Assembly (NCBI RefSeq): GCF_008364845.1
Contig: NZ_VTTP01000001.1
Location: 86,827-150,826, forward strand
DNA length: 64,000 nucleotides
Reading direction: 5' to 3'
From: Actinotalea subterranea
Lineage (GTDB): Bacteria > Actinomycetota > Actinomycetes > Actinomycetales > Cellulomonadaceae
Made by a program: the position numbers and the translations under genes. The notes beneath the pieces are model-generated. The model saw only the letters and a list, made by a program, of their open reading frames with translations, did no database searches and was not told the DNA's origin. Shown piece by piece: positions 3,203-48,932 of the stretch (within the stretch, counting starts at the first letter, position 1; every line of letters starts with the position of its first letter).

Positions 3203-3263
3203 CCGGCCACCCGCTCGCGCCAGCGCTCTCGAAGCCCGCCGCGCGGCCTGGCACGATGACGGC

Positions 3264-38545: not shown

Positions 38546-39951
38546 CCGGGCTCCTCCGGTGGTGCGGGCGACGACGTCTCGGCCGGTCCGCTGCCGTCCC
38601 GCGGGACCCGGAGGCGGACCTCCCAGCCGCCGTCGGGCGTCGGGCCGTAGCGCAGCCGGCCTCCCACGAGCTCGGCCCGCTCGTGCATGCCGACGAGCCC
38701 GAACCCGCCGCCCGGGCCGGGGTCCACGCCGTGCCCGCGCGCGTTCCGCACGACGACGACCAGGCGGTCGTCGTCACGGTCGTCGACCTCGACGACGCAG
38801 GGCGCGCCCGGCGCGTGGACGGCCGCGTTGGCGAGGGACTCCTGGACCATCCGGTACACGACGAGCTGGGCGAGCGGCCCGACGCCGGCACCCTGCTCGT
38901 GGGTCCCGGCGTCGGCGTCCGCCTCGGCGCCTGCGCCGGACGGGGAGGGCCCCGCCCCCACGGGTGCCCCGTCGCGGTCCGGCGCGTGGCCGGCGCCGTG
39001 CACCACGAGCCGGACGTCGGCGCCCGCCGCCCGGCGTGCCGCCACGAGGTCACGTACGGAGGCGAGCGACTCCACCGCCCGGCCGGCCCCGGCTCCCTCA
39101 CGCAGGAGGCCCACGAGCCGCCGCAGGTCGTCGAGCACAGCCGTGCTCTGCGCGCGCACCTGCTGCGCCGAGCGCTTGGCCTCCGCCGGGTCCGTGTCGA
39201 CCTGGTGCACGATCGCCGACGCCATGAGGGCGATCCCGGACATGTGGTGCGCGGCGATGTCGTGCAGCTCACGGGACATCGCAGCGCGCTCACGCGAGAC
39301 CGTGGCGTCGACGAGCGCCACGTGCTCGCGCTGGAGCGCCCGCACCTCCTTGTCGCGTGCCTCGCGCGCCTCCCGGCGGGCCGCGACCGTGAGCGCGACG
39401 GGCAGCGGCACACCGACCACGCCGAGCGCCTGGACGAGCGCGACGCCCAGTGCCGGCCCGAGCGGCGAGGCGCCGCTGCGCACGTCGTTCACCGTCTGGG
39501 CACCCGCGACGAGGACGGCCGCGAGCGCCAGGACCGGCACGAGCCTGCGCAGGGGCGGCAGCAGCGCCACGGCGAACACGGCGACGAGGACCGCCCCGGT
39601 GGTCAGGCCGAACAGGGGGCTGGGTGCGAGCGCCGCGACGAGCCACGGCAGGGCGGCCGCCGTCGTGGCGGCGACCCGCGGGGCGCGCCGCACCCACAGC
39701 AGCGCGACGGCCTGGGCCACGAGGACGACCACCACGACCCACCAGCCGACGCTCCATGCCGCGGGCAGCGGACCGACCGCGTCCTCGTCCGAGGCGGCCA
39801 GGAGAGGGATCGACAGGAGCCCGGTGAGAGCGAGGACGCCGAACACCCCGGAGGCGGCCGCCTCGGCGCGGGTCGGCCGCAGGAGCGAGCGCGGATCGGC
39901 TGGCACTGTCCCCCTGTCCCCCTGTCCCCGTCGCCACACGTGCAGCGCCAT
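38542..39951 (-). CDS. Sensor histidine kinase (HisKA_3 type)
   Basis: Up to 469 residues with about five to six N-terminal membrane helices and little extracytoplasmic sequence. The dimerisation region [14 protein letters not shown] holds the phospho-acceptor His (near residue 245). An Asn-box ([12 protein letters not shown]) and G-box ([16 protein letters not shown]) follow. The small sensor region suggests an intramembrane-sensing kinase. A GTG at 39906, preceded by GGGGG, is an alternative start that avoids translating the GGGGACA repeats. Operon with the response regulator. Confidence 0.92.
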
Positions 39952-40009
39952 CGTAGGTCCGACGGCGCACGGCCCACCGCGCCGCGTGCCCGGACGGGGC
40001 GGGGCGCGA

Positions 40010-40039
40010 TTGCCGACGCCCGGTGGAACCGGCTACCGT
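40010..40039 (+). promoter_or_regulatory. Promoter of the cysteine leader-cysK-cysE unit
   Basis: TTGCCG (40010-40015), 18-nt spacer, TACCGT (40034-40039). It resembles the promoter ahead of the sulfonate operon (TTGCCC-17-TACTCT). Confidence 0.5.
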
Positions 40040-40072
40040 CGCGCTACCGGACACCGAGCGGAAGGATGAGCG

Positions 40073-40153
40073 ATGCGCAGCGCCTCGCCCGCCACCGCCG
40101 CCGCGCACCCCCACGCAGCGCCCTGCTGTCGTCCCGCGCACCGCTGTCTGTAG
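40073..40153 (+). CDS. Cysteine-rich leader peptide upstream of cysK
   Basis: Twenty-six codons from an ATG preceded by GGAAGGA at 6-nt spacing. The peptide is Ala/Pro/His-rich and ends CCRPAHRCL; Cys codons are residues 18, 19 and 25 of 26. The stop codon abuts a 10-bp stem (40153-40162 / 40196-40205), so a ribosome stalled on Cys25 would cover the 5' arm. In mycobacteria, polycysteine short ORFs are known to attenuate cysteine-synthesis operons in response to cysteine. The position before cysK-cysE fits the same job. The peptide itself probably has no other function. Confidence 0.65.
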
Positions 40154-40205
40154 AGCGCTGGCCTGAGTCCTCCCGGACCGCCGCATCGCGACGTCGCCAG
40201 CGCTC
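40153..40205 (+). promoter_or_regulatory. Attenuator stem after the cysK leader peptide
   Basis: GAGCGCTGGC (40153-40162) pairs perfectly with GCCAGCGCTC (40196-40205), enclosing a small GTCC-TCCC-GGAC hairpin (40167-40178). The arms GCGCTGGC / GCCAGCGC, and the 11-mer TCGCCAGCGCT on the 3' side (40194-40204), recur in the second cysteine leader at 42211-42286. Confidence 0.65.
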
Positions 40206-40329
40206 GTCGACCCACGCACGACCCGCTCCCCAGCACACGCCCTCGCGGCACGCCCGAGCACCGGTCACGGCGACGCGTCCACGGCGCGGCACCCGACCGC
40301 GGCACCCTCCGTGCCACCCGCCGCAGCGA

Positions 40330-40382
40330 CCCGGTCCACGGTGCGCCGGCCGGGTGCGGAATGGACCGGGCGCGTGCACCGT
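40330..40382 (+). promoter_or_regulatory. Alternative RNA stems before cysK
   Basis: CCCGGTCCA (40330-40338) pairs with TGGACCGGG (40362-40370). ACGGTGC (40338-40344), inside that loop, can instead pair with GCACCGT (40376-40382). The two pairings conflict, as expected of a terminator/antiterminator switch about 60 nt before the cysK start. Confidence 0.45.
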
Positions 40383-40437
40383 TGACCCCATGATCGCCCG
40401 GCCCCCCACGGGCCCCACGAGACGACGAGGAACCACC

Positions 40438-41373
40438 ATGGCCCGCATCTACGACGACGTCACCCAGCTCATCGGCAACACCCCGCTGGTCCGCCTCAAC
40501 CGCGTGACCGAGGGCGCCGGGGCGACCGTCGCCGCAAAGCTCGAGTTCTACAACCCCGCGAGCTCCGTCAAGGACCGCATCGGTGTCGCGATCGTCGACG
40601 CGGCCGAGGCGTCGGGCGAGCTCCCGCCCGGCGGCACGATCGTCGAGGCCACGAGCGGCAACACGGGCATCGCGCTCGCCATGGTCGGCGCGGCCCGCGG
40701 GTACGACGTGGTGCTGACGATGCCCGAGACGATGTCGAAGGAGCGGCGCGCGCTGCTCCGCGCGTTCGGCGCGGAGCTCGTGCTGACGCCCGGTTCCGAG
40801 GGCATGAAGGGCGCGGTCACGCGGGCCGAGCAGATCGCCGCCGAGCGCCCCGGCGCGGTTCTCGCCCGGCAGTTCGCGAACGAGGCGAACCCCGCGATCC
40901 ACCGGGCCACGACGGCCGAGGAGATCTGGGCGGACACCGACGGCGGCGTCGACATCGTGGTGGCCGGCATCGGCACCGGCGGCACGATCACGGGAGTCGG
41001 GCAGGTCCTCAAGGAGCGCAAGCCCGGCGTGCAGGTCATCGCCGTCGAGCCCGCCGAGTCGCCGATCCTCAACGGCGGCCAGCCCGGACCCCACAAGATC
41101 CAGGGGATCGGCGCGAACTTCGTCCCGGAGATCCTCGACACGTCCGTCTACGACGAGGTCATCGACGTCGACGCCGACACCGCGATCCGTGTCGCGCGCG
41201 ACACCGCCCGGCGCGAGGGCCTCCTCGTCGGCATCTCGTCCGGTGCGGCCATCCACGCGGCCGTGCAGGTGGCTCACCGTCCGGAGAACGCCGGCAAGCT
41301 CGTCGTCGTCATCGTGCCGTCGTTCGGCGAGCGCTACCTGTCCTCGGTCCTCTACTCGGACCTGATGGACTGA
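40438..41373 (+). CDS. cysK: Cysteine synthase (O-acetylserine sulfhydrylase)
   Basis: PLP enzyme of 311 residues that makes cysteine and acetate from O-acetylserine and sulfide. The PLP lysine is Lys45 (SSVKDRIG), the substrate loop TSGNTG begins at residue 72, and the phosphate-binding [10 protein letters not shown] follows. ACGAGG ends 7 nt before the ATG. The frame is open far upstream but that part is antisense to the kinase. It is 2 nt upstream of cysE, forming a cysteine-synthesis operon with a cysteine-codon leader. Confidence 0.95.
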
Positions 41374-41375
41374 CC

Positions 41376-41960
41376 ATGGAGCACCTCTGGCGATTCCTGC
41401 GGGTCCTGCGCGAGGACCTCGACGCCGCACGACGGCGCGACCCTGCCGCGCGCAGCCTGCTCGAGGTCGCCCTGGGCTACCCGGGGGTCCACGCCGTGTG
41501 GGCCTACCGGGTGGCCCACCGGATGTGGCGTGAGCCGGGCCTGCGTCTGCCCGCGCGTCTGTTCTCCCAGCTCGCCAGGTCCGCCACGGGCATCGAGATC
41601 CACCCGGGCGCCCAGATCGGGCGCCGGCTCTTCATCGACCACGGCATGGGCGTGGTGATCGGCGAGACGGCCGTCGTCGGGGACGACGTCGTGCTGTTCC
41701 ACGGCGCGACCCTCGGCGGCAAGGCGATGCGCCGTGGCAAGCGCCACCCGACCCTCGGCGACCACGTGGTCGTCGGGGCGGGCGCGAAGATCCTCGGGCC
41801 CGTGTGGATCGGTGACGGCGCCCAGATCGGCGCGAACGCCGTCGTCGTCAAGGACGTCCCGGCCGGCTCCGTCGCGGTCGGCGTGCCGGCTACGGTCCGC
41901 ACGCGACCCCAGCCCTCCCCCGCTGCCGAGCTCGTCGAGGACCCCGCGATCTACATCTGA
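41376..41960 (+). CDS. cysE: Serine O-acetyltransferase
   Basis: Makes O-acetylserine from serine and acetyl-CoA, the substrate of CysK. The 194 residues form the short actinobacterial form: an N-terminal helical part and a left-handed beta-helix of hexapeptide repeats ([38 protein letters not shown]). The catalytic His and Asp of the hexapeptide domain appear in FIDHGMG and [10 protein letters not shown]. It starts 2 nt after cysK. Confidence 0.95.
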
Positions 41961-41969
41961 CCGGGCCCA

Positions 41970-41994
41970 GGCCCGCGCGCCGACGCGCGGAGCC
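41970..41994 (+). terminator. Terminator after cysE
   Basis: CCGCGCG / CGCGCGG with loop CCGA, extended by GGC / GCC past a one-base bulge, 10 nt after the cysE stop. Confidence 0.6.
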
Positions 41995-42034
41995 CGCCCG
42001 ACGTCTCGGCATGTGGCACGGGAGCGGCGCAGCC

Positions 42035-42063
42035 TTGCCCTACGGGTGGAGCGCCCCTACTCT
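42035..42063 (+). promoter_or_regulatory. Promoter of the sulfonate/methionine operon
   Basis: TTGCCC (42035-42040), 17-nt spacer, TACTCT (42058-42063). The transcript would start near 42070 and carry two small hairpins, GGTCC-CAA-GGACC (42073-42085) and TCTCG / CGAGA (42097-42111), before the leader peptide. Confidence 0.5.
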
Positions 42064-42134
42064 CGGGTCAAAGGTCCCAAGGACCGGGAATCATTGTCTC
42101 GCACCGCGAGACGCCGAGGAGAGGAGGCCGCGCC

Positions 42135-42224
42135 ATGCACCGTCACCACGACGTGTCGATGGCGCTGCCGATGATGCCCTCCTCCTGTGGCTGCTGTCCG
42201 TGCATGCCACGCGCTGGCGCCTGA
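42135..42224 (+). CDS. Cysteine-rich leader peptide upstream of ssuB
   Basis: Twenty-nine codons with a very strong Shine-Dalgarno (GGAGAGGAGG, 42118-42127). The peptide is His/Met-rich at the start and contains CGCCPC at residues 18-23: four Cys codons in six. Such a run makes translation sensitive to charged tRNA-Cys. The 5' arm of a 9-bp stem (42211-42219) lies within the last codons, so ribosome position on the Cys codons decides whether it folds. It precedes a sulfur-acquisition operon. The design resembles mycobacterial polycysteine attenuators, but those described are leaderless, whereas this one is Shine-Dalgarno-led. Confidence 0.75.
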   Translation: MHRHHDVSMALPMMPSSCGCCPCMPRAGA

Positions 42225-42286
42225 CGCGCTGACTCCCCCGGAGCCGGCCCGCTCCGGTCCGACGGCGGACCTCGGTCGCCAGCGCT
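42211..42286 (+). promoter_or_regulatory. Attenuator stems of the ssu leader
   Basis: GCGCTGGCG (42211-42219) pairs with CGCCAGCGC (42277-42285). GCGCTG (42226-42231), just after the leader stop, can compete for the same 3' arm. Inside are CCGGAGC / GCTCCGG (42238-42257) and GGTCCG-ACGG-CGGACC (42256-42271), which share two bases and exclude each other. The 3' arm lies in the 11-mer TCGCCAGCGCT also found in the cysK leader. Confidence 0.6.
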
Positions 42287-42341
42287 GAACCCCGGCCCGA
42301 CCCACCGCTCCCCCGCGCCCGCACCGCGCCGCCCCGTCGAG

Positions 42342-42356
42342 GGCCGGCGCCCGGCC
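42342..42356 (+). terminator. Possible intrinsic attenuator hairpin before ssuB
   Basis: GGCCGG-CGC-CCGGCC, a 6-bp all-GC stem 27 nt before the ssuB ATG. It could be the terminator arm of the leader; no T-run. Confidence 0.35.
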
Positions 42357-42382
42357 GCGCGAGGCTGGACCGACGAGGACCC

Positions 42383-43237
42383 ATGACGCTCACCACGCCC
42401 ACCGCTGTCCGCACCCACCCCGCACACCCGGTCTCCGTGCAAGGCGTGGGGCGCACCTTCGCCTCACGCGACCGCTCGGCACAGCCCCGCGCCGTGCTCG
42501 CCGACGTCGACCTCGAGATCGCCGCGGGCGACATCGTCGCCCTCATCGGCGCGTCCGGCTGCGGCAAGTCGACCCTGCTGCGCCAGGTCAGCGGCCTCGA
42601 CGCACCCACCACGGGCCGGATCCTCATCGACGGTCGCCCGGTCGACGGGGTCGACGCCCGGTGCGCGGTCGCCTTCCAGGAGCCACGGCTGCTCCCCTGG
42701 CGCACGCTCACCCAGAACGTCGCGCTCGGGCTCCCCCGCGGCACCGACCGGGCGACCGGCGACCGGCGTGTGGCGGAGCTCCTCGACCTCGTCGGCCTCG
42801 CCGACTGCGCGGGCTACCGGCCACGCCAGGTGTCGGGCGGCATGGCGCAACGCGCCGCGCTCGCCCGCGCCCTCGCCCGGAACCCCGGCGTCCTCGTCCT
42901 CGACGAGCCCTTCGGGGCGCTCGACGCCCTGACCAGGCTGCGCATGCAGGACCTGCTCCTGGACGTCCACGCCGCCGAGCCGACCACGGTCCTGCTCGTC
43001 ACGCACGACGTCGACGAGGCCCTGTACCTGGCCGACCGCGTCGTGCTGCTCGGTCGCCCCGCCGGTGCGCCGCCAGGCGCGCCCGCGGGCGTGCGCAGCG
43101 TCGTGACGGTCCCCGGACGGCGCCCGCGCGACCGCGGCGACGCGGGCCTCGCGCTGCTGCGCGCCCAGCTGCTCGACGGGCTCGGCGTGCCGACCCACCA
43201 CGAGGCGCACGACCCGGACCAGCACCACTCGATCTGA
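42383..43237 (+). CDS. ssuB: Aliphatic sulfonate ABC transporter ATP-binding protein
   Basis: ATPase of 284 residues of the nitrate/sulfonate/taurine class. Walker A is GASGCGKST, the Q-loop is AVAFQEPRLLPWRT, the signature is VSGGMAQR, Walker B VLVLDEPFGALDA and the switch VTHDVDEALYLADR. FQEPRLLPW and DEPFGALD are characteristic of SsuB/TauB/NrtC. GACGAGGA precedes the ATG. First enzyme gene of the operon behind the cysteine leader. The C-terminus is His/Asp-rich. Confidence 0.88.
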   Translation: MTLTTPTAVRTHPAHPVSVQGVGRTFASRDRSAQPRAVLADVDLEIAAGDIVALIGASGCGKSTLLRQVSGLDAPTTGRILIDGRPVDGVDARCAVAFQEPRLLPWRTLTQNVALGLPRGTDRATGDRRVAELLDLVGLADCAGYRPRQVSGGMAQRAALARALARNPGVLVLDEPFGALDALTRLRMQDLLLDVHAAEPTTVLLVTHDVDEALYLADRVVLLGRPAGAPPGAPAGVRSVVTVPGRRPRDRGDAGLALLRAQLLDGLGVPTHHEAHDPDQHHSI

Positions 43238-43334: not shown

Positions 43335-44381
43335 ATGAGAATCCGCACCGCACTGTCCGTCACCGCGACGACCGCCGCCGCCCTGATGCTCAGCGCCTGC
43401 GCGGCGGGCGAGGGGTCCTCGGTCGTCGAGGACGCGCCGGAGCCGGCCGTGTCCGCCGACGCCGAGGGCTGGAGCGACGACACCCTGACCCTCGACTACG
43501 CGACCTACAACCCGCTGAGCCTGATCATCAAGGAGCAGGGCTGGCTCGAGGCGACGCTCGACGACGTGACGGTCACGTGGGTCCAGTCGGCCGGCTCGAA
43601 CAAGGCCAACGAGGCGCTGCGGGCCGGCGCGATCGACGTCGGGTCGACCGCGGGCTCCGCCGCCCTCCTCGCGAAGGCCAACGGCTCGCCCATCCAGACC
43701 ATCGGGATCTACACGCAGCCCGAGTGGGCCGCGATCGTGGTTCCCGCAGGCTCGGACATCACGTCGGTCGAGCAGCTCGCGGGCCGGTCCGTCGCCGCGA
43801 CCAAGGGCACCGACCCGTACTTCTTCCTCCTCCAGTCGCTCGAGGAGCACGGCGTCGCCCTCGGCGACGTCGAGGTGCAGAACCTCCAGCACGCGGACGG
43901 CAAGGCCGCCCTCGAGTCGGGTGCGGTCGACGCCTGGTCCGGCCTCGACCCGCTCATGGCCGCGAGCGAGGCGACCGCAGGCTCCCGCCTGATCTACCGC
44001 AACATCGACTTCAACACGTACGGGTTCCTCAACGCCACGCAGGACTTCATCACGGCGAACCCCGACCTCGCCCAGGTCGTCCTCGACGCGTACGAGAAGG
44101 CCCGGGCGTGGGCGATCGAGAACCCCGAGGAGACGGCCCAGATCCTCGCCGACACCGCGGGGATCGACCTCGCCATCGCGCAGAAGGTCATCCTCGAGCG
44201 CACCGTCATCGACCTCGACGTCGTCCCGGGCGACGAGCAGCGCGACGTCCTGTCCGTCGTCGGGCCGATCTTCGTGGACTCGGGTGACGTCTCCTCGCAG
44301 GCGGACATCGACACGGCCCTCGACGGGCTGTTCCACACCGAGTTCGCCGAGAACGCGGACCCCGCGCCCATCGCCGACTGA
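43335..44381 (+). CDS. ssuA: Aliphatic sulfonate ABC transporter, binding lipoprotein
   Basis: 348 residues with lipobox LMLSACAAG and the SsuA/NMT1-like fold: DYATYNPLSLIIKEQGWLE, VTWVQSAGSNKANEALRAG and DVGSTAGSAALLAKANG. It would capture organosulfonates or related anions outside the membrane. CCAGGAG lies about 7 nt before the ATG. No desulfonating monooxygenase (SsuD/TauD) is encoded in the window, so the exact substrate is open. Confidence 0.85.
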   Translation: MRIRTALSVTATTAAALMLSACAAGEGSSVVEDAPEPAVSADAEGWSDDTLTLDYATYNPLSLIIKEQGWLEATLDDVTVTWVQSAGSNKANEALRAGAIDVGSTAGSAALLAKANGSPIQTIGIYTQPEWAAIVVPAGSDITSVEQLAGRSVAATKGTDPYFFLLQSLEEHGVALGDVEVQNLQHADGKAALESGAVDAWSGLDPLMAASEATAGSRLIYRNIDFNTYGFLNATQDFITANPDLAQVVLDAYEKARAWAIENPEETAQILADTAGIDLAIAQKVILERTVIDLDVVPGDEQRDVLSVVGPIFVDSGDVSSQADIDTALDGLFHTEFAENADPAPIAD

Positions 44382-44452
44382 GGCACCCCGCCCCGGGCCC
44401 GCGCGCACGCGTGGGCCCGGGGCACCCGACGAGCACCGAGCAAGGAGTCACC

Positions 44453-45418
44453 ATGAGCGACCTCGTCGCACCGGCGCGCGGAGCCACCGTCCGCCGTGCC
44501 ACGGCGCCCGGCGGAAGTGCCGCCGCGGACCGCCCGCGCACCGGGCCCGACGCGCCGTCGGCCCTTGAGGGGTCGGAGGTCGGGGCCCCGGCACCAGGCC
44601 CGACGCTGATAGCGGCGAGCCAGCTCGGCACCGCCGTGGTCGAGTCGCCCCGGGGCCGCGGCCGGCGGCGCAACCTCGCCCTCGCGCTCGTGGTCCCGGT
44701 GGGGCTCCTCGCCCTGTGGCACCTGGCGACCGCGGTGACCGGCACGTTCGCCTCGTACGAGCTGCCGTCGCCCGGTGCCGTGCTCGACGCTGCGGTCGAG
44801 CTCGCGACATGGGACAAGGGCCCGAACCTCGCGACCCACGTCCAGATCTCCGTGCAGCGCGTGCTCATCGGGTTCCTCGCCGGCTCCGCCGCAGGCCTCA
44901 CCGTCGGCGCGCTGGTGGGGCTGTCCCGGCTCGCCGACTCGCTCCTGTCGGGGACGATCGGCGCGGTGCGCGCGGTCCCCTCGCTCGGATGGGTCCCGCT
45001 GCTCGTCCTGTGGCTCGGCATCAACGAGGACTCGAAGGTGGTGCTCGTCGCGATCGGGGCGTTCTTCCCCGTGTACACGACCGTGGCGTCCGCCCTGCGC
45101 CACGTCGACCCGCAGCTCGTCGAGGCCGGGCGCGCGTACGGCCTGCGGGGCGCGTCGCTGCTGCTGCGCGTCCAGCTCCCCGCCGCCACGCCGTCGGTCA
45201 TCTCGGGGCTGCGCCTCGGCATGGCCCAGGCCTGGCTCTTCCTGGTGGCCGCGGAGCTCATCGCGTCGTCGATGGGCCTCGGCTTCATCCTCACCGACTC
45301 GGCCAACAACGGCCGGGTCGACCGCATCCTGCTGTCGCTCGTGACGCTCGCCGTCCTGGGCAAGCTGACCGACGCCCTCATCGGCGTCGCCGAGAAGAGG
45401 CTGCTGCGCCGGTGGTAG
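44453..45418 (+). CDS. ssuC: Aliphatic sulfonate ABC transporter permease
   Basis: 321 residues. An unusual N-terminal extension of about 75 mostly Ala/Pro/Gly residues precedes a BPD-transporter-like domain with about six helices. The EAA loop is VEAGRAYGLRGASLLLRVQLP. AAGGAG ends 5 nt before the ATG. The stop overlaps the next gene by 7 nt. It pairs with SsuB and SsuA in the same operon. Confidence 0.88.
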   Translation: MSDLVAPARGATVRRATAPGGSAAADRPRTGPDAPSALEGSEVGAPAPGPTLIAASQLGTAVVESPRGRGRRRNLALALVVPVGLLALWHLATAVTGTFASYELPSPGAVLDAAVELATWDKGPNLATHVQISVQRVLIGFLAGSAAGLTVGALVGLSRLADSLLSGTIGAVRAVPSLGWVPLLVLWLGINEDSKVVLVAIGAFFPVYTTVASALRHVDPQLVEAGRAYGLRGASLLLRVQLPAATPSVISGLRLGMAQAWLFLVAAELIASSMGLGFILTDSANNGRVDRILLSLVTLAVLGKLTDALIGVAEKRLLRRW

Positions 45419-47481
45419 ACGTCCGAGAGCACACGATCGCGCACCTCCTGACCGAGGACCGCACCTTCCACGCACCCGAGCACCTCGCACGCACCGCGAA
45501 CGTCGGCCCCGCGGACCACGCACGGCTGCTCGCCGAGGCCGACGCCGACCACGTCGCGTTCTGGGAGCGGGCCGCCGAGCGCCTGGACTGGGCCGAGCCC
45601 TGGCACACGGCCCACACGTGGTCGCCTGCCGTCCCCGACCCCGAGGCCCTGGGCGAGCTCACGGTCCCGGCCGCGCAGTGGTTCGTCGGGGGCCGCCTCA
45701 ACGTCGCGGTGAACTGCGTCGACCGGCACGTGGCCGCCGGGCGCGGCGACAAGCCCGCGCTGCACTTCGAGGGCGAGCCCGGGGACCGCCGGACCTACAC
45801 GTACGCCGACCTCCAGCGCGAGGTGTGCCGTGCCGCCAACGCCCTCACCGGGCTCGGCATCGGCAAGGGCGACCGCGTGGTCGTCTACCTGCCGGTGCTG
45901 GCCGAGACGGTCATCATCACCCTGGCGATCGCGCGCATCGGCGCGATCCACTCGCTGGTCTTCGGCGGGTTCTCCGCCGAGGCCGTGCGCTTCCGGGTCC
46001 AGGACACGGGCGCGAAGCTCCTCGTCACCTCCGACGGCCAGTTCCGGCGCGGCGCCGCGGTCCCCACCAAGGCGACCGCCGACGCGGCGGTCGAGGGGCT
46101 CGACCACGTCGAGCACGTCCTCGTCGTGCGCCGCACGGGTGAGCAGACGCCGGTGCCGTGGACCGCGGGCAGGGACGTGTGGTGGCACGACGTCGTCGAC
46201 ACGGCCGACGACGAGCACGAGGCCGAGGCGTTCGACGCCGAGACCCCGCTGTTCATCATCTACACGTCGGGCACGACCGGCCGCCCCAAGGGCCTCGTGC
46301 ACACGAGCGGTGGGTACCTGACGCAGGCGTCGTGGACGCACTGGGCGCACTTCGACGCACGCGACGACGACGTGCACTGGTGCACGGCCGACCTCGCCTG
46401 GGTCACCGCCCACACCTACGAGATCTACGGGCCGCTCTCGAACGGCCTCACGCAGGTCATCTACGAGGGGACGCCCGGCACGCCGCACCCCGGGCGGCAC
46501 TGGGAGATCATCGAGCGCTACGGCGTCACGACGTACTACACGGCGCCGACCCTCATCCGCACGTTCATGACGTGGTTCCCGGACGGCCCGCCCGCGTCCC
46601 ACGACCTGTCGAGCCTGCGCCTGCTCGGCACCGTCGGGGAGTCCATCAACCCCGAGGCATGGATGTGGTTCCACGAGCGCGTCGGGGGCGGCCGCGCACC
46701 CGTCGTCGACACGTGGTGGCAGTCGGAGACCGGCGCGACGATGATCGCGCCCCTGCCCGGCGTGACGACGCTCAAGCCCGGCTCCGCCACTCGCCCGCTG
46801 CCGGGCATCTCCGCGAGGGTCGTCGACGAGCAGGGCGACGACGTGCCACCGGGCTCGGGGGGCCTCCTGGTGATCGACCGCACCTGGCCCGCCATGGCCC
46901 GCACCGTGTGGGGCGACCCCCGTCGCTACCGCGACGCCTACTGGTCGCGGTTCGCCGACCGCGGCTACTTCTTCGCGGGAGACGGCGCGCGGCGCGACGC
47001 CGACGGCGACCTCTGGCTCCTTGGCCGCGTCGACGACGTCATCAACGTCTCCGGCCACCGCCTGTCCACGATCGAGATCGAGTCCGCGCTCGTCGCGCAC
47101 CCGCTCGTCGGCGAGGCCGGCGTCACCGGCGTGCACGACGCGACGACGGGCCAGGCGATCGCCGCGTTCGTGATCCCCGCGCGCGCCGACGCCCACCCCG
47201 ACGACCCGGCCGGCTGGGTGCGCCACGCGCTCGAGCTGACGCAGACGCTGCGCGCCCACGTCGCCCAGCAGATCGGCCCGATCGCCAAGCCGCGCGATGT
47301 CGTCGTCGTGCCCGACCTCCCGAAGACCCGCTCCGGGAAGATCATGAGACGGCTGCTCGCCGACCTCGTCGCCGGGGGCACCCTGGGCGACGTCACCTCG
47401 CTGCAGGACGCGTCCGTCCTGCACCGGATCCAGGCCGTGCTGGCCGCCCGCCAGGACCACACGAAGGGGCCCGTCCAGTGA
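45412..47481 (+). CDS. Acetyl-CoA synthetase-like acyl-CoA ligase
   Basis: AMP-forming ligase of about 689 residues. It has YTSGTTGRPKG from residue 284, the acyl-pocket motif DTWWQSETG with the Trp that restricts Acs to acetate/propionate, and the regulatory Lys643 in TRSGKIMRR. One deviation: the usual GEPINPEAW reads GESINPEAW. The GTG at 45412 overlaps the permease stop. Acetate is released both by CysK and by the MetY product encoded next, so acetate recycling to acetyl-CoA is a coherent role. A carboxylated sulfonate substrate is an alternative. Confidence 0.88.
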   Translation: MVDVREHTIAHLLTEDRTFHAPEHLARTANVGPADHARLLAEADADHVAFWERAAERLDWAEPWHTAHTWSPAVPDPEALGELTVPAAQWFVGGRLNVAVNCVDRHVAAGRGDKPALHFEGEPGDRRTYTYADLQREVCRAANALTGLGIGKGDRVVVYLPVLAETVIITLAIARIGAIHSLVFGGFSAEAVRFRVQDTGAKLLVTSDGQFRRGAAVPTKATADAAVEGLDHVEHVLVVRRTGEQTPVPWTAGRDVWWHDVVDTADDEHEAEAFDAETPLFIIYTSGTTGRPKGLVHTSGGYLTQASWTHWAHFDARDDDVHWCTADLAWVTAHTYEIYGPLSNGLTQVIYEGTPGTPHPGRHWEIIERYGVTTYYTAPTLIRTFMTWFPDGPPASHDLSSLRLLGTVGESINPEAWMWFHERVGGGRAPVVDTWWQSETGATMIAPLPGVTTLKPGSATRPLPGISARVVDEQGDDVPPGSGGLLVIDRTWPAMARTVWGDPRRYRDAYWSRFADRGYFFAGDGARRDADGDLWLLGRVDDVINVSGHRLSTIEIESALVAHPLVGEAGVTGVHDATTGQAIAAFVIPARADAHPDDPAGWVRHALELTQTLRAHVAQQIGPIAKPRDVVVVPDLPKTRSGKIMRRLLADLVAGGTLGDVTSLQDASVLHRIQAVLAARQDHTKGPVQ

Positions 47482-48932
47482 CCGATCCATCCACGACCGC
47501 GAGCAACACCACCACCGCAGGCACCGGTGCGACCGACGGCAGGCCCGTGAGCACGGGCGACCGGCGCTGGGGCTTCCGCACGCGCGCCCTGCACGCGGGC
47601 GGCGTCCCGGACGCGACGACGGGCGCCCGAGCGGTGCCGATCTACCAGACCACGAGCTTCGTGTTCACCGACACCGCCGACGCCGCGAACCTCTTCGCCC
47701 TGCAGAAGTACGGCAACATCTACTCGCGCATCGGCAACCCCACGGTCGCCGCTCTGGAGGAGCGGCTCGCCTCGCTCGAGGGCGGCATCGGCGCGGTCGC
47801 GACGGCGTCCGGCATGTCCGCGGAGTTCATCACCTTCGCCGCGCTCGTGGGCGCCGGCGACCACGTGGTCGCCGCGGCGTCGCTGTACGGCGGCACCGTC
47901 ACGCAGCTCGACGTGACGCTGCGCCGCTTCGGCGTCGCGACGACGTTCGTGGCGGGCACCGACCCGGCCGACTACGCCGCCGCGATCCGGCCCGAGACCA
48001 AGGTCGTCTACGCCGAGGTCGTCGCGAACCCGTCCGGCGAGATCACGGACATCGCGGGCCTCGCCGAGGTCGCCCACGCGGCCGGGGTCCCGCTCGTCAT
48101 CGACGCGACCCTCGCGACCCCGTACCTGTGCCGGCCCATCGAGCACGGCGCCGACATCGTCATCCACTCCGTCACCAAGTTCCTCGGCGGGCACGGCACG
48201 ACTCTCGGCGGCGTCGTCGTGGAGAGCGGGCGCTTCGACTGGGGCAACGGCAAGTTCCCGCAGATGACCGAGCCCGTGCCGTCCTACGGCGGCGTCAGCT
48301 GGTGGGAGAACTTCGGGGAGTACGGCTTCCTGACCAAGCTGCGGTCCGAGCAGCTCCGCGACATCGGGCCGGCGTTGTCCGCGCAGTCCGCCTTCACCCT
48401 GCTCCAGGGTGTCGAGACCCTACCCCAGCGCCTCGACGCGCACCTCGCCAACGCCAGGACCGTCGCCGAGTGGCTCGACGCGGACCCCCGCGTGGGCTAC
48501 GTCAGCTGGGCGGGCCTGCCCGGGCACGCGCACCACGAGCGGGCGCGTCGCTACCTGCCCGCCGGGCCCGGCGCGGTGTTCGCGTTCGGGCTCCGCGGGT
48601 CGGGTGACGTCCCGGGCCGCGAGGCCGGGCGGCGCTTCATCGAGTCCTTGCAGCTCGCGAGCCACCTCGCGAACGTCGGCGACGCGCGCACCCTCGTCAT
48701 CCACCCCGCGTCGACGACGCACCAGCAGCTCTCGCCCGAGCAGCTCGCGGCGGCCGGCGTCCCGGAGGACCTGGTCCGGATCAGCGTGGGCCTCGAGGAC
48801 GTCGAGGACATCCTGTGGGACCTCGACCAGGCCATCACGGCCGCCGTCGGGCCGCGGCCGGCGGCCTCGAGCGACACCCGTCGACCGGCCGTCGCCGCGA
48901 CGGGCGCGAGCGCGACGGAGGCCACCGCATGA
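47478..48932 (+). CDS. metY: O-acetylhomoserine sulfhydrylase
   Basis: PLP enzyme of the Cys/Met metabolism family, 484 residues, making homocysteine and acetate from O-acetylhomoserine and sulfide. Recognisable are FRTRALHAGG, YSRIGNPTVAALEERLASLE and the PLP lysine in IHSVTKFLGGHGTT. The GTG start overlaps the ligase stop as GTGA. A 20-residue Thr/Gly-rich N-terminal and an Ala-rich C-terminal tail extend the core. It links sulfur uptake in this operon to methionine synthesis. Confidence 0.93.
   Translation: MTDPSTTASNTTTAGTGATDGRPVSTGDRRWGFRTRALHAGGVPDATTGARAVPIYQTTSFVFTDTADAANLFALQKYGNIYSRIGNPTVAALEERLASLEGGIGAVATASGMSAEFITFAALVGAGDHVVAAASLYGGTVTQLDVTLRRFGVATTFVAGTDPADYAAAIRPETKVVYAEVVANPSGEITDIAGLAEVAHAAGVPLVIDATLATPYLCRPIEHGADIVIHSVTKFLGGHGTTLGGVVVESGRFDWGNGKFPQMTEPVPSYGGVSWWENFGEYGFLTKLRSEQLRDIGPALSAQSAFTLLQGVETLPQRLDAHLANARTVAEWLDADPRVGYVSWAGLPGHAHHERARRYLPAGPGAVFAFGLRGSGDVPGREAGRRFIESLQLASHLANVGDARTLVIHPASTTHQQLSPEQLAAAGVPEDLVRISVGLEDVEDILWDLDQAITAAVGPRPAASSDTRRPAVAATGASATEATA

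Follow-up and report, generated by a model that had tools for sequence, protein, structure and literature searches.

Among the closest described counterparts of the element reported here are the leaderless polycysteine small open reading frames (ORFs) of mycobacteria (Canestrari et al. 2020, Mol Microbiol 114:93), which, in the passages of PMC13236596 and PMC9094748 that cite them, place a short ORF with Cys codons near its stop codon upstream of cysteine genes. Our element is a Cys-codon leader ORF followed by an RNA hairpin, and it lies once upstream of cysK and once upstream of an ssu operon in a 64,000-nucleotide (nt) stretch of the Actinotalea subterranea genome (contig NZ_VTTP01000001.1, positions 86,827 to 150,826), here called the window; positions below are those of the window, and all features are on its forward strand. 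Whereas these passages report a cysteine response for the mycobacterial ORFs, the present leaders are known from sequence alone. They also differ from the leaderless ORFs described there in being mostly led by a Shine-Dalgarno (SD) motif, in having a covarying stem, in preceding cysK-cysE, and in belonging to other families.

Candidate cys leaders were also proposed by Seliverstov et al. (2005) in Mycobacterium, in Propionibacterium acnes, and at cbs of Bifidobacterium longum (PMC1262725). In the portion of that paper devoted to them, Cys-codon runs stand near the stop codon upstream of actinobacterial cys genes, as they do here, and the authors suggest a role for Rho; by their account the mycobacterial regions lack a conserved hairpin, whereas the hairpin found here shows compensatory changes. 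The trp-type actinobacterial attenuators of the same portion likewise consist of a short leader with its control codons close to the end and a stem after it, but they include a U-run and an antiterminator, neither of which was found here. In the Rhodobacterales, the uORFC-8-2 motif combines an upstream ORF with conserved Cys codons and conserved RNA stems before cysS (PMC8632094). As excerpted, it is alphaproteobacterial, is tied to cysS, has its Cys codons inside the first stem, and ends in a terminal U-run, none of which applies here. The metL leader of Streptomyces lividans metNIQ (PMC8079986) resembles ours in mixing Met and Cys codons and in having no clear Rho-independent terminator; it differs in being leaderless and in preceding another operon, and the sections of that paper on metL show no common sequence or stem. 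The fewest predicted intrinsic terminators are found in certain Actinobacteria, according to an extract of PMC2965389. No description of the present cysK/ssu leader element was found in a literature search that left subscription papers mostly outside its reach.

Both transcription units are probably controlled by ribosome-mediated attenuation through a sulfur-amino-acid leader. The attenuator class is well supported by the comparisons below, the OFF step being what we infer from them, and the cysK leader with its hairpin looks like a switch that senses cysteine supply.

Leaders and stems in the window

Leader positions, stems, and SD motifs were read directly from the window sequence, and both leader ORFs, both stems, and a shared 11-mer proved to sit where an earlier, sequence-only reading of this DNA had placed them. 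The cysK leader ORF (40073..40153) encodes 26 amino acids with three Cys residues (CC...C) and ends CTG-TAG, its stop codon being TAG and its last Cys codon TGT (40145-40147). Stem 1 is a 10-base-pair (bp) stem whose 5' arm, GAGCGCTGGC (40153..40162), begins on the last base of the stop codon and whose 3' arm, GCCAGCGCTC (40196..40205), is followed by a C-rich tail. The ssu leader ORF (42135..42224), with the SD motif GAGGAGG, encodes the 29-amino-acid peptide MHRHHDVSMALPMMPSSCGCCPCMPRAGA, which contains four Cys residues (CGCCPC) and four Met residues besides the start. Near its end, a Cys codon, TGC (42201-42203), is followed by a Met codon, ATG (42204-42206), and the 5' arm of the 9-bp stem 2, GCGCTGGCG (42211..42219), lies inside the last codons of the ORF, pairing with CGCCAGCGC (42277..42285). 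The loop of stem 2 holds a small hairpin, GGTCC-N6-GGACC (42256..42271), at each of whose five positions 13 to 15 of 15 sequences pair. Both window leaders have an SD motif, and in both 7 nt separate the last Cys codon from GCGCTGGC.

The shared 11-mer, TCGCCAGCGCT (40194-40204 and 42276-42286), has two copies in the window, where 0.13 would be expected, and three in the 4.03-Mb genome; the third (L003), as judged by eye, sits in the interior of a long coding region that is probably ftsK. The caveat of the sequence-only reading, that a similar motif occurs near 3220, was borne out: GCCAGCGCT has further copies at 3219 and 50458. Fold energies relative to shuffled sequences gave z of -2.5 for stem 1 and of -1.0 for stem 2, so that folding energy by itself would have missed stem 2. 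The leader peptides matched no NCBIfam family (E value, 1) and no Pfam family (E value, 1e-5), such short peptides matching poorly in any case, and no Rfam 15 family, including SAM riboswitches, T-boxes, and others, matched up to an E value of 1 in 39950-42420.

Conservation of the cysK leader

All 19 genomes of the genus encode CysK, and all 19 have a leader-model match just upstream at an E value of ≤1; 17 are strong, those of G005 and G008 have E values of 0.07 and 0.16, and the stop codon has moved in one of the 19. For a wider comparison, 226 CysK loci, many of them picked by the RNA model, gave 182 distinct upstream regions. In each, the 500 nt preceding cysK were screened for an ORF that contains two or more Cys codons and closes with TGY-NNN-stop. 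Such an ORF was present in 135 regions, and 123 of these have a stem of at least 7 bp whose first base is the final one of the stop codon. The fairer set comprises the loci found through the CysK protein; among their 94 distinct regions, 48 have the ORF and 43 of these 48 the stem of at least 7 bp.

The enrichment in Cys codons is specific to the reading frame. Ahead of the last Cys codon, Cys accounts for 402 of 1485 in-frame codons (27%) of the 135 leaders, compared with 91 of 1350 (6.7%) and 25 of 1350 (1.9%) in the other two frames. In 134 of the 135 leaders TGT serves as the last Cys codon, and in 132 the stop codon is TAG. Elsewhere in these leaders TGT makes up 122 of 402 Cys codons, and genes have TGT:TGC ratios of 0:12 (nine window genes) and 2:35 (long ORFs of the named loci). 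The preference for TGT at the last position may reflect slow decoding or a constraint on the RNA. The ssu leader of the window uses TGC, not TGT, at the last Cys position. With a loosely defined motif set, an SD motif was found in 123 of the 135 cysK leaders; a Cys-codon leader, mostly SD-led, with a conserved, covarying stem before cysK is the part of the sequence-only reading that related genomes support. Four leaders (L005, L006, L007, and L080, from G012, G008, G005, and Myceligenerans) appear leaderless, with no SD motif and TANNNT 5 to 8 nt before the start; three of them stand beside SD-led sisters in the same genus and perhaps reflect a recent switch in the mode of initiation.

The covariance search in Micrococcales that the sequence-only reading had proposed was carried out in two rounds. 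Alignment A1, the basis of model R1, held 36 of 49 hand-located cysK leaders and the ssu leader of the window; the 13 left out (L006, L011, L029, L030, L036, L038, L041, L045, L051, L063, L065, L073, and L080) are near-duplicates, stemless, or have shorter variant arms, an omission that lowers the covariation seen in its 37 rows. Alignment A3, with model R2, took all R1 matches up to an E value of 0.0175 in 76 chosen loci, the cut-off having been lowered from 0.03 after two antisense matches and one uninspected match (L039:10625) had been seen there, and L045 and L051 failed to reach it; being fitted to the structure, A3 favors the structure. In 73 distinct rows, 97.3% of cells are paired, six of the nine pairs show two-sided changes, and 47 cells carry such changes, against 9.9 ± 2.3 in shuffled alignments and at most 10 in slid controls. 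Compensated arm pairs include GAGCGCCGG/CCGGCGCTC, GAGCGTC/GACGCTC, GAGCATTGA/TCAATGCTC, and GAGCGCGGG/CCCGCGCTC.

Across the 135 leaders, where the 3' arm was taken as the best match and each leader was controlled by 50 base shuffles, the mean stem length is 8.8 bp versus 4.3 bp in the shuffles. A recount anchored on GCTC, which covers 80 of the 127 GAGC elements, found pairs 5 to 9 paired in 99, 97, 99, 89, and 85% of the 80 elements, against 97, 88, 83, 79, and 73% if the two sides were independent. On the supported branches of a CysK tree, analyzed by a sign test on independent branch pairs, a change on the 5' side is matched on the 3' side in an average of 3.3 of 5 cases at pair 6, 2.9 of 3 at pair 7, and 3.6 of 7 at pair 9; opposite change averages 0.0, and the 3' side is otherwise unchanged. 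The arm is also conserved beyond pairing, with GAGC in 127 of the 135 leaders and, in 131, GAGC or GGGC starting at the final stop-codon base. An AGCGCT palindrome considered as a dimerization site was dropped, being lost in variants such as GAGCGTC and GAGCATTG.

The distance from the last Cys codon to the stem is kept even where the stop codon moves. Leader L017 has lost its TAG and ends six codons later, and thus fails the TGY-NNN-stop rule and is counted among the 47 regions without the ORF, and it retains the Cys-7 nt-GCGCTGGC arrangement; in the ssu leader of the window the stop lies five codons beyond the TGY-NNN-stop position, with the same arrangement intact. The spacing thus tracks the last Cys codon rather than the stop codon, which makes the last control codon a likelier place than the stop for the ribosome to act. 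The proposal that the two operons share one stem sequence did not survive comparison of 15 genomes: at one pair, which may be U-A or C-G, 10 genomes have the same state in both stems and 5 do not. A shared stem sequence as the site of a common regulator was rejected, and with each stem drifting on its own, the two need not have a binding site in common.

Distribution of the element

Named regions picked by CysK number 75, of which 30 have the ORF, 26 of them with the stem; the ORF-positive genera are Cellulomonas, Oerskovia, Demequina, Georgenia, Isoptericola, Promicromonospora, Antribacter, Myceligenerans, Cellulosimicrobium, and Pengzhenrongella. The sequence-only reading had named relatives lacking the ORF or the compensatory changes as the finding that would speak against it. 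Most regions read from Cellulomonadaceae, Promicromonosporaceae, Demequinaceae, and Georgenia are not of this kind, but 45 of the 75 named regions, among them 19 from Micrococcaceae, 10 from Intrasporangiaceae, 9 from Microbacteriaceae, and also Pseudactinotalea of the same family as the window's genus, fail the ORF rule. Genome searches returned matches in 132 of the 200 genomes of the family, spread over 20 of 25 genera, and in 101 of 396 order genomes, tallies that include chance matches and many matches that were not inspected. Contexts were fetched for 80 model matches, and 55 of them have cysK downstream; the 25 without it were taken as chance, so that the weak matches are partly chance. 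At class level, 6 of 394 genomes had matches; two lie outside the order and have no convincing Cys leader, and G231 and G379, of the same order, were set down to chance. On these searches, the cysK leader element is confined to a few Micrococcales families.

The proposed cysteine regulon is small: all convincing matches read are at cysK, except for the ssu leaders of the genus. Further members were rejected, the 25 contexts without cysK being taken as chance; two of these, L254 and L255, contain a brief Cys-codon frame that no suitable stem accompanies. At loci of the sulfite reductase family, a scan of 6 of 22 together with two class-level matches found no convincing leader; L263 and L265 combine a Cys frame with a stem in what looks like chance.

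Leaders of other makeup occur before cysK as well. In L029, L036, L038, and L030, from Cellulosimicrobium and Oerskovia flava, the Cys leader is retained and the GAGC stem is gone, a different hairpin lying directly downstream of the leader in L030. In Demequina or its family code (L042, L056, and L243-L246), cysK leaders mix several Met codons with the Cys codons, as in SMCCRMCCEGCCL.

The ssu leader

SsuA is encoded in 15 of the 19 genus genomes, and in all 15 the leader precedes ssuB. A model of these 15 leaders (R3) matches them by construction, and its silence elsewhere is the informative result: searched in 200 family genomes under stricter filters, it had no match in the 181 outside the genus, one extra weak match (G002; E value, 0.008) being left uninspected. 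The outer stem and the GGTCC/GGACC hairpin are kept, with 92.5% of positions paired. Two-sided changes affect two pairs, a number equalled in 48 of 500 shuffles, so that covariation within the genus is modest. The 15 leaders also share a conserved ALPM peptide core.

The sequence-only reading had taken this leader as a second cysteine leader. Met is the more frequent residue, however (66 Met versus 41 Cys among 381 residues over the 15 leaders), and the four internal Met codons, including an invariant one next to the stem, had been overlooked. This ATG, four nt ahead of the stem, is shared by all 15 leaders and directly preceded by a Cys codon in 13 of them. Unit 2 thus reads as having a sulfur-amino-acid leader, not a pure cysteine leader, and its switch seems to sense methionine as well.

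Proposed mechanism and alternatives

With charged tRNA-Cys scarce (at ssu, tRNA-Cys or tRNA-Met), the ribosome would pause at the last control codon with its front reaching onto the stem base; stem formation would be blocked and transcription would enter the genes. With cysteine plentiful, the ribosome would finish the leader, the default-off stem would form, and transcription would stop before the genes. Because the stem has a C-rich tail and no U-run, this stop would more likely be Rho- or pause-assisted than classical intrinsic termination, and an intrinsic terminator was rejected for want of the U-run. A ribosome of usual footprint with the Cys codon in its A site would cover about four bases of the arm. 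Over the 123 elements with a stem, the mean predicted stem probability falls from 0.93 when free to 0.45 with the four basal bases masked. The tail has the form G-CCCC, with C at position 5 in 102 of the 123, and the 50 nt after the stem are 47% C and 28% G. We tentatively suggest a two-part attenuator without antiterminator or U-run, in which a ribosome at the anchored UGU would act on the base of a default-off stem, the tail would lead to Rho, the codon-to-stem spacing would be conserved, and the copy in one genus would have been retuned to Met plus Cys for a sulfonate-uptake/metY operon; as a whole this design is possible rather than probable.

A number of results weigh against attenuation of this kind. 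The 10-bp window stem would survive masking of four bases, its six left-over pairs forming at a predicted probability of 0.98, so that a ribosome at the last Cys codon may not by itself occlude the stem sufficiently. No U-run follows the stem in the 123 elements, except in L175. The loop within the stem (48% C and 31% G) is as C-rich as the tail, whose composition allows Rho without proving it. No consistent alternative partner for the 3' arm, and thus no defined ON structure, was found, and the accessibility of the tail changes little. In the 37 rows of A1, the nine-pair stem is 98.8% paired with two-sided changes at one pair only, and the per-pair tests on the CysK tree point the expected way without any reaching 0.05, the independent changes being too few. 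Five of the 48 CysK-picked leaders lack a 7-bp stem; the three Cellulosimicrobium leaders and that of Oerskovia flava are without the GAGC arm, and that of G008 (L006) has 6 bp. L231 has a stem but, by eye, only one Cys codon in its last dozen. The 7-nt Cys spacing holds in 13 of the 15 ssu leaders.

L175 (from G034) is a lower-GC context, of 52% GC, and has a clear T-run, TTTTTCTTG, after its cysK stem.

Loose patterns are common in such DNA: a loose stem plus Cys-codon pattern occurs at 6 sites in the genome and at 43 in a backward-read control. The stem alone was rejected as evidence for this reason, and weight was given to its conjunction with the ORF, position, and conservation. The same frequency is what could be said for chance, that is, short Cys ORFs meeting GC-rich inverted repeats in a GC-rich genome, an explanation that the model match in 19 of 19 genus genomes and the covariation refute and that we consider next to impossible. 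An RNA that binds a metabolite or protein, the ORF being incidental, would account for arm sequence conservation in excess of pairing, but it leaves the frame-specific Cys enrichment and the SD motifs unexplained, and neither the simple one-stem architecture nor the lack of an Rfam match points to it; we regard it as very improbable. Translational control, with the stem or an alternative hiding or freeing the SD of cysK or ssuB, has a parallel in the mycobacterial cysteine leaders, described as translation attenuation in a passage of PMC13236596. Here, though, 64 to 159 nt (ssu) or 44 to 233 nt (cysK rows) separate the stem end from the start codon, predicted SD accessibility moves only from 0.57 to 0.55 between states (P = 0.03), and 28 of 135 regions have a SigR-like promoter interposed between stem and cysK, all of which makes such control improbable.

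A classical three- or four-segment attenuator of opposite sign would make the stem an antiterminator, and thus the ON structure: a stall on upstream Cys codons would free the 5' arm to pair with the 3' arm, whereas a ribosome at the stop codon would cover the 5' arm and leave the 3' arm to a downstream terminating segment. Segment 2 of the Escherichia coli trp leader likewise follows the stop codon. The start of GAGC or GGGC on the last base of the stop and the further upstream Cys codons of most leaders fit this arrangement. Against it, the stop shifts in L017 and ssu while the spacing of the last Cys or Met codon holds, the U-run is missing, and no consistent downstream partner was seen in a search for a fourth segment that was not exhaustive; we think it rather unlikely. 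Instead of sensing cysteine, the ssu leader could also respond chiefly to methionine or act as an arrest peptide on the nascent chain (conserved sequence MALPM...CMPRAGA), and this we take as a serious possibility that falls short of being probable. Its excess of Met over Cys, the invariant ATG, L292 and L302 with a single Cys each, and an operon that includes metY all favor it. But the terminal AG(A/V) of the supposed arrest peptide is dictated by the stem arm, and none of the 15 leaders lacks a Cys codon near the stem. Methionine starvation would hamper initiation too, which makes Met leaders awkward. A mixture of Met and Cys codons has its precedent in the S. lividans metNIQ leader, as far as PMC8079986 is excerpted. 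Ribosome-mediated attenuation with a default-off stem is the reading that we retain for both units.

Downstream genes and a SigR-like promoter

Unit 1 consists of cysK (40438..41373), encoding cysteine synthase A (TIGR01139; 452.5 bits, cut-off 351), and cysE (41376..41960), encoding serine O-acetyltransferase (TIGR01172; 234 bits, cut-off 210.65). The closest named CysK is that of Actinotalea solisilvae, with 94% identity, in keeping with a most likely origin of the window in Actinotalea (Cellulomonadaceae, Micrococcales). Unit 2 has the order ssuB-ssuA-ssuC-acs-metY and ends with a methionine gene. It comprises an ssuB-like ABC transporter ATP-binding protein (42383..43237; PF00005), whose top NCBIfam matches are sulfonate, nitrate, and taurine transporters, all below their cut-offs; an ssuA-family substrate-binding protein (43335..44381; TIGR01728, 222 bits, cut-off 163.5); an ssuC-like permease (44411..45418; PF00528, and PRK11365 with 165.6 bits, below its cut-off); an acetate-CoA ligase, acs (45424..47481, start codon assumed; TIGR02188, 841 bits, cut-off 725); and metY, an O-acetylhomoserine aminocarboxypropyltransferase (47478..48932; TIGR01326, 576 bits, cut-off 495). 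Candidate promoters picked by eye precede the cysK leader (TTGCCG-N18-TACCGT, 40010..40039) and the ssu leader (TTGCCC-N17-TACTCT, 42035..42063). The window genome (G000), with its ssu-like uptake operon, has a single NIR_SIR match, in a 947-amino-acid open frame that is perhaps a nitrite reductase, and no second NIR_SIR match that would suggest an assimilatory sulfite reductase.

Between stem 1 and cysK lies a further promoter-like sequence absent from the sequence-only reading, GGAAT-N18-GTT (40358..40383). The pattern GGAAT/C-N17-19-GTT, which we take to resemble the SigR/SigH promoter motif, occurs between leader and cysK in the 28 regions mentioned above, against 0.2 expected from shuffles; the window's genus accounts for 16 of them, and Demequina or its family code for 10. 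In the genus of the window, cysK probably has an extra SigR-type promoter downstream of the attenuator. SigH and sulfur-gene induction after diamide treatment are covered in passages of PMC3141025. If the promoter is real, thiol stress would bypass the cysK attenuator through it.

Implications

How Cys leaders switch their downstream genes is an open question in GC-rich genomes with few intrinsic terminators. A compensated stem at a fixed spacing from one Cys codon, kept in several families, gives this question a defined element open to mutation of every single base, and the hosts of the cysK leader element are non-pathogenic cellulose degraders. The ssu copy offers a test case for the reading of two sulfur amino acids by a single leader.

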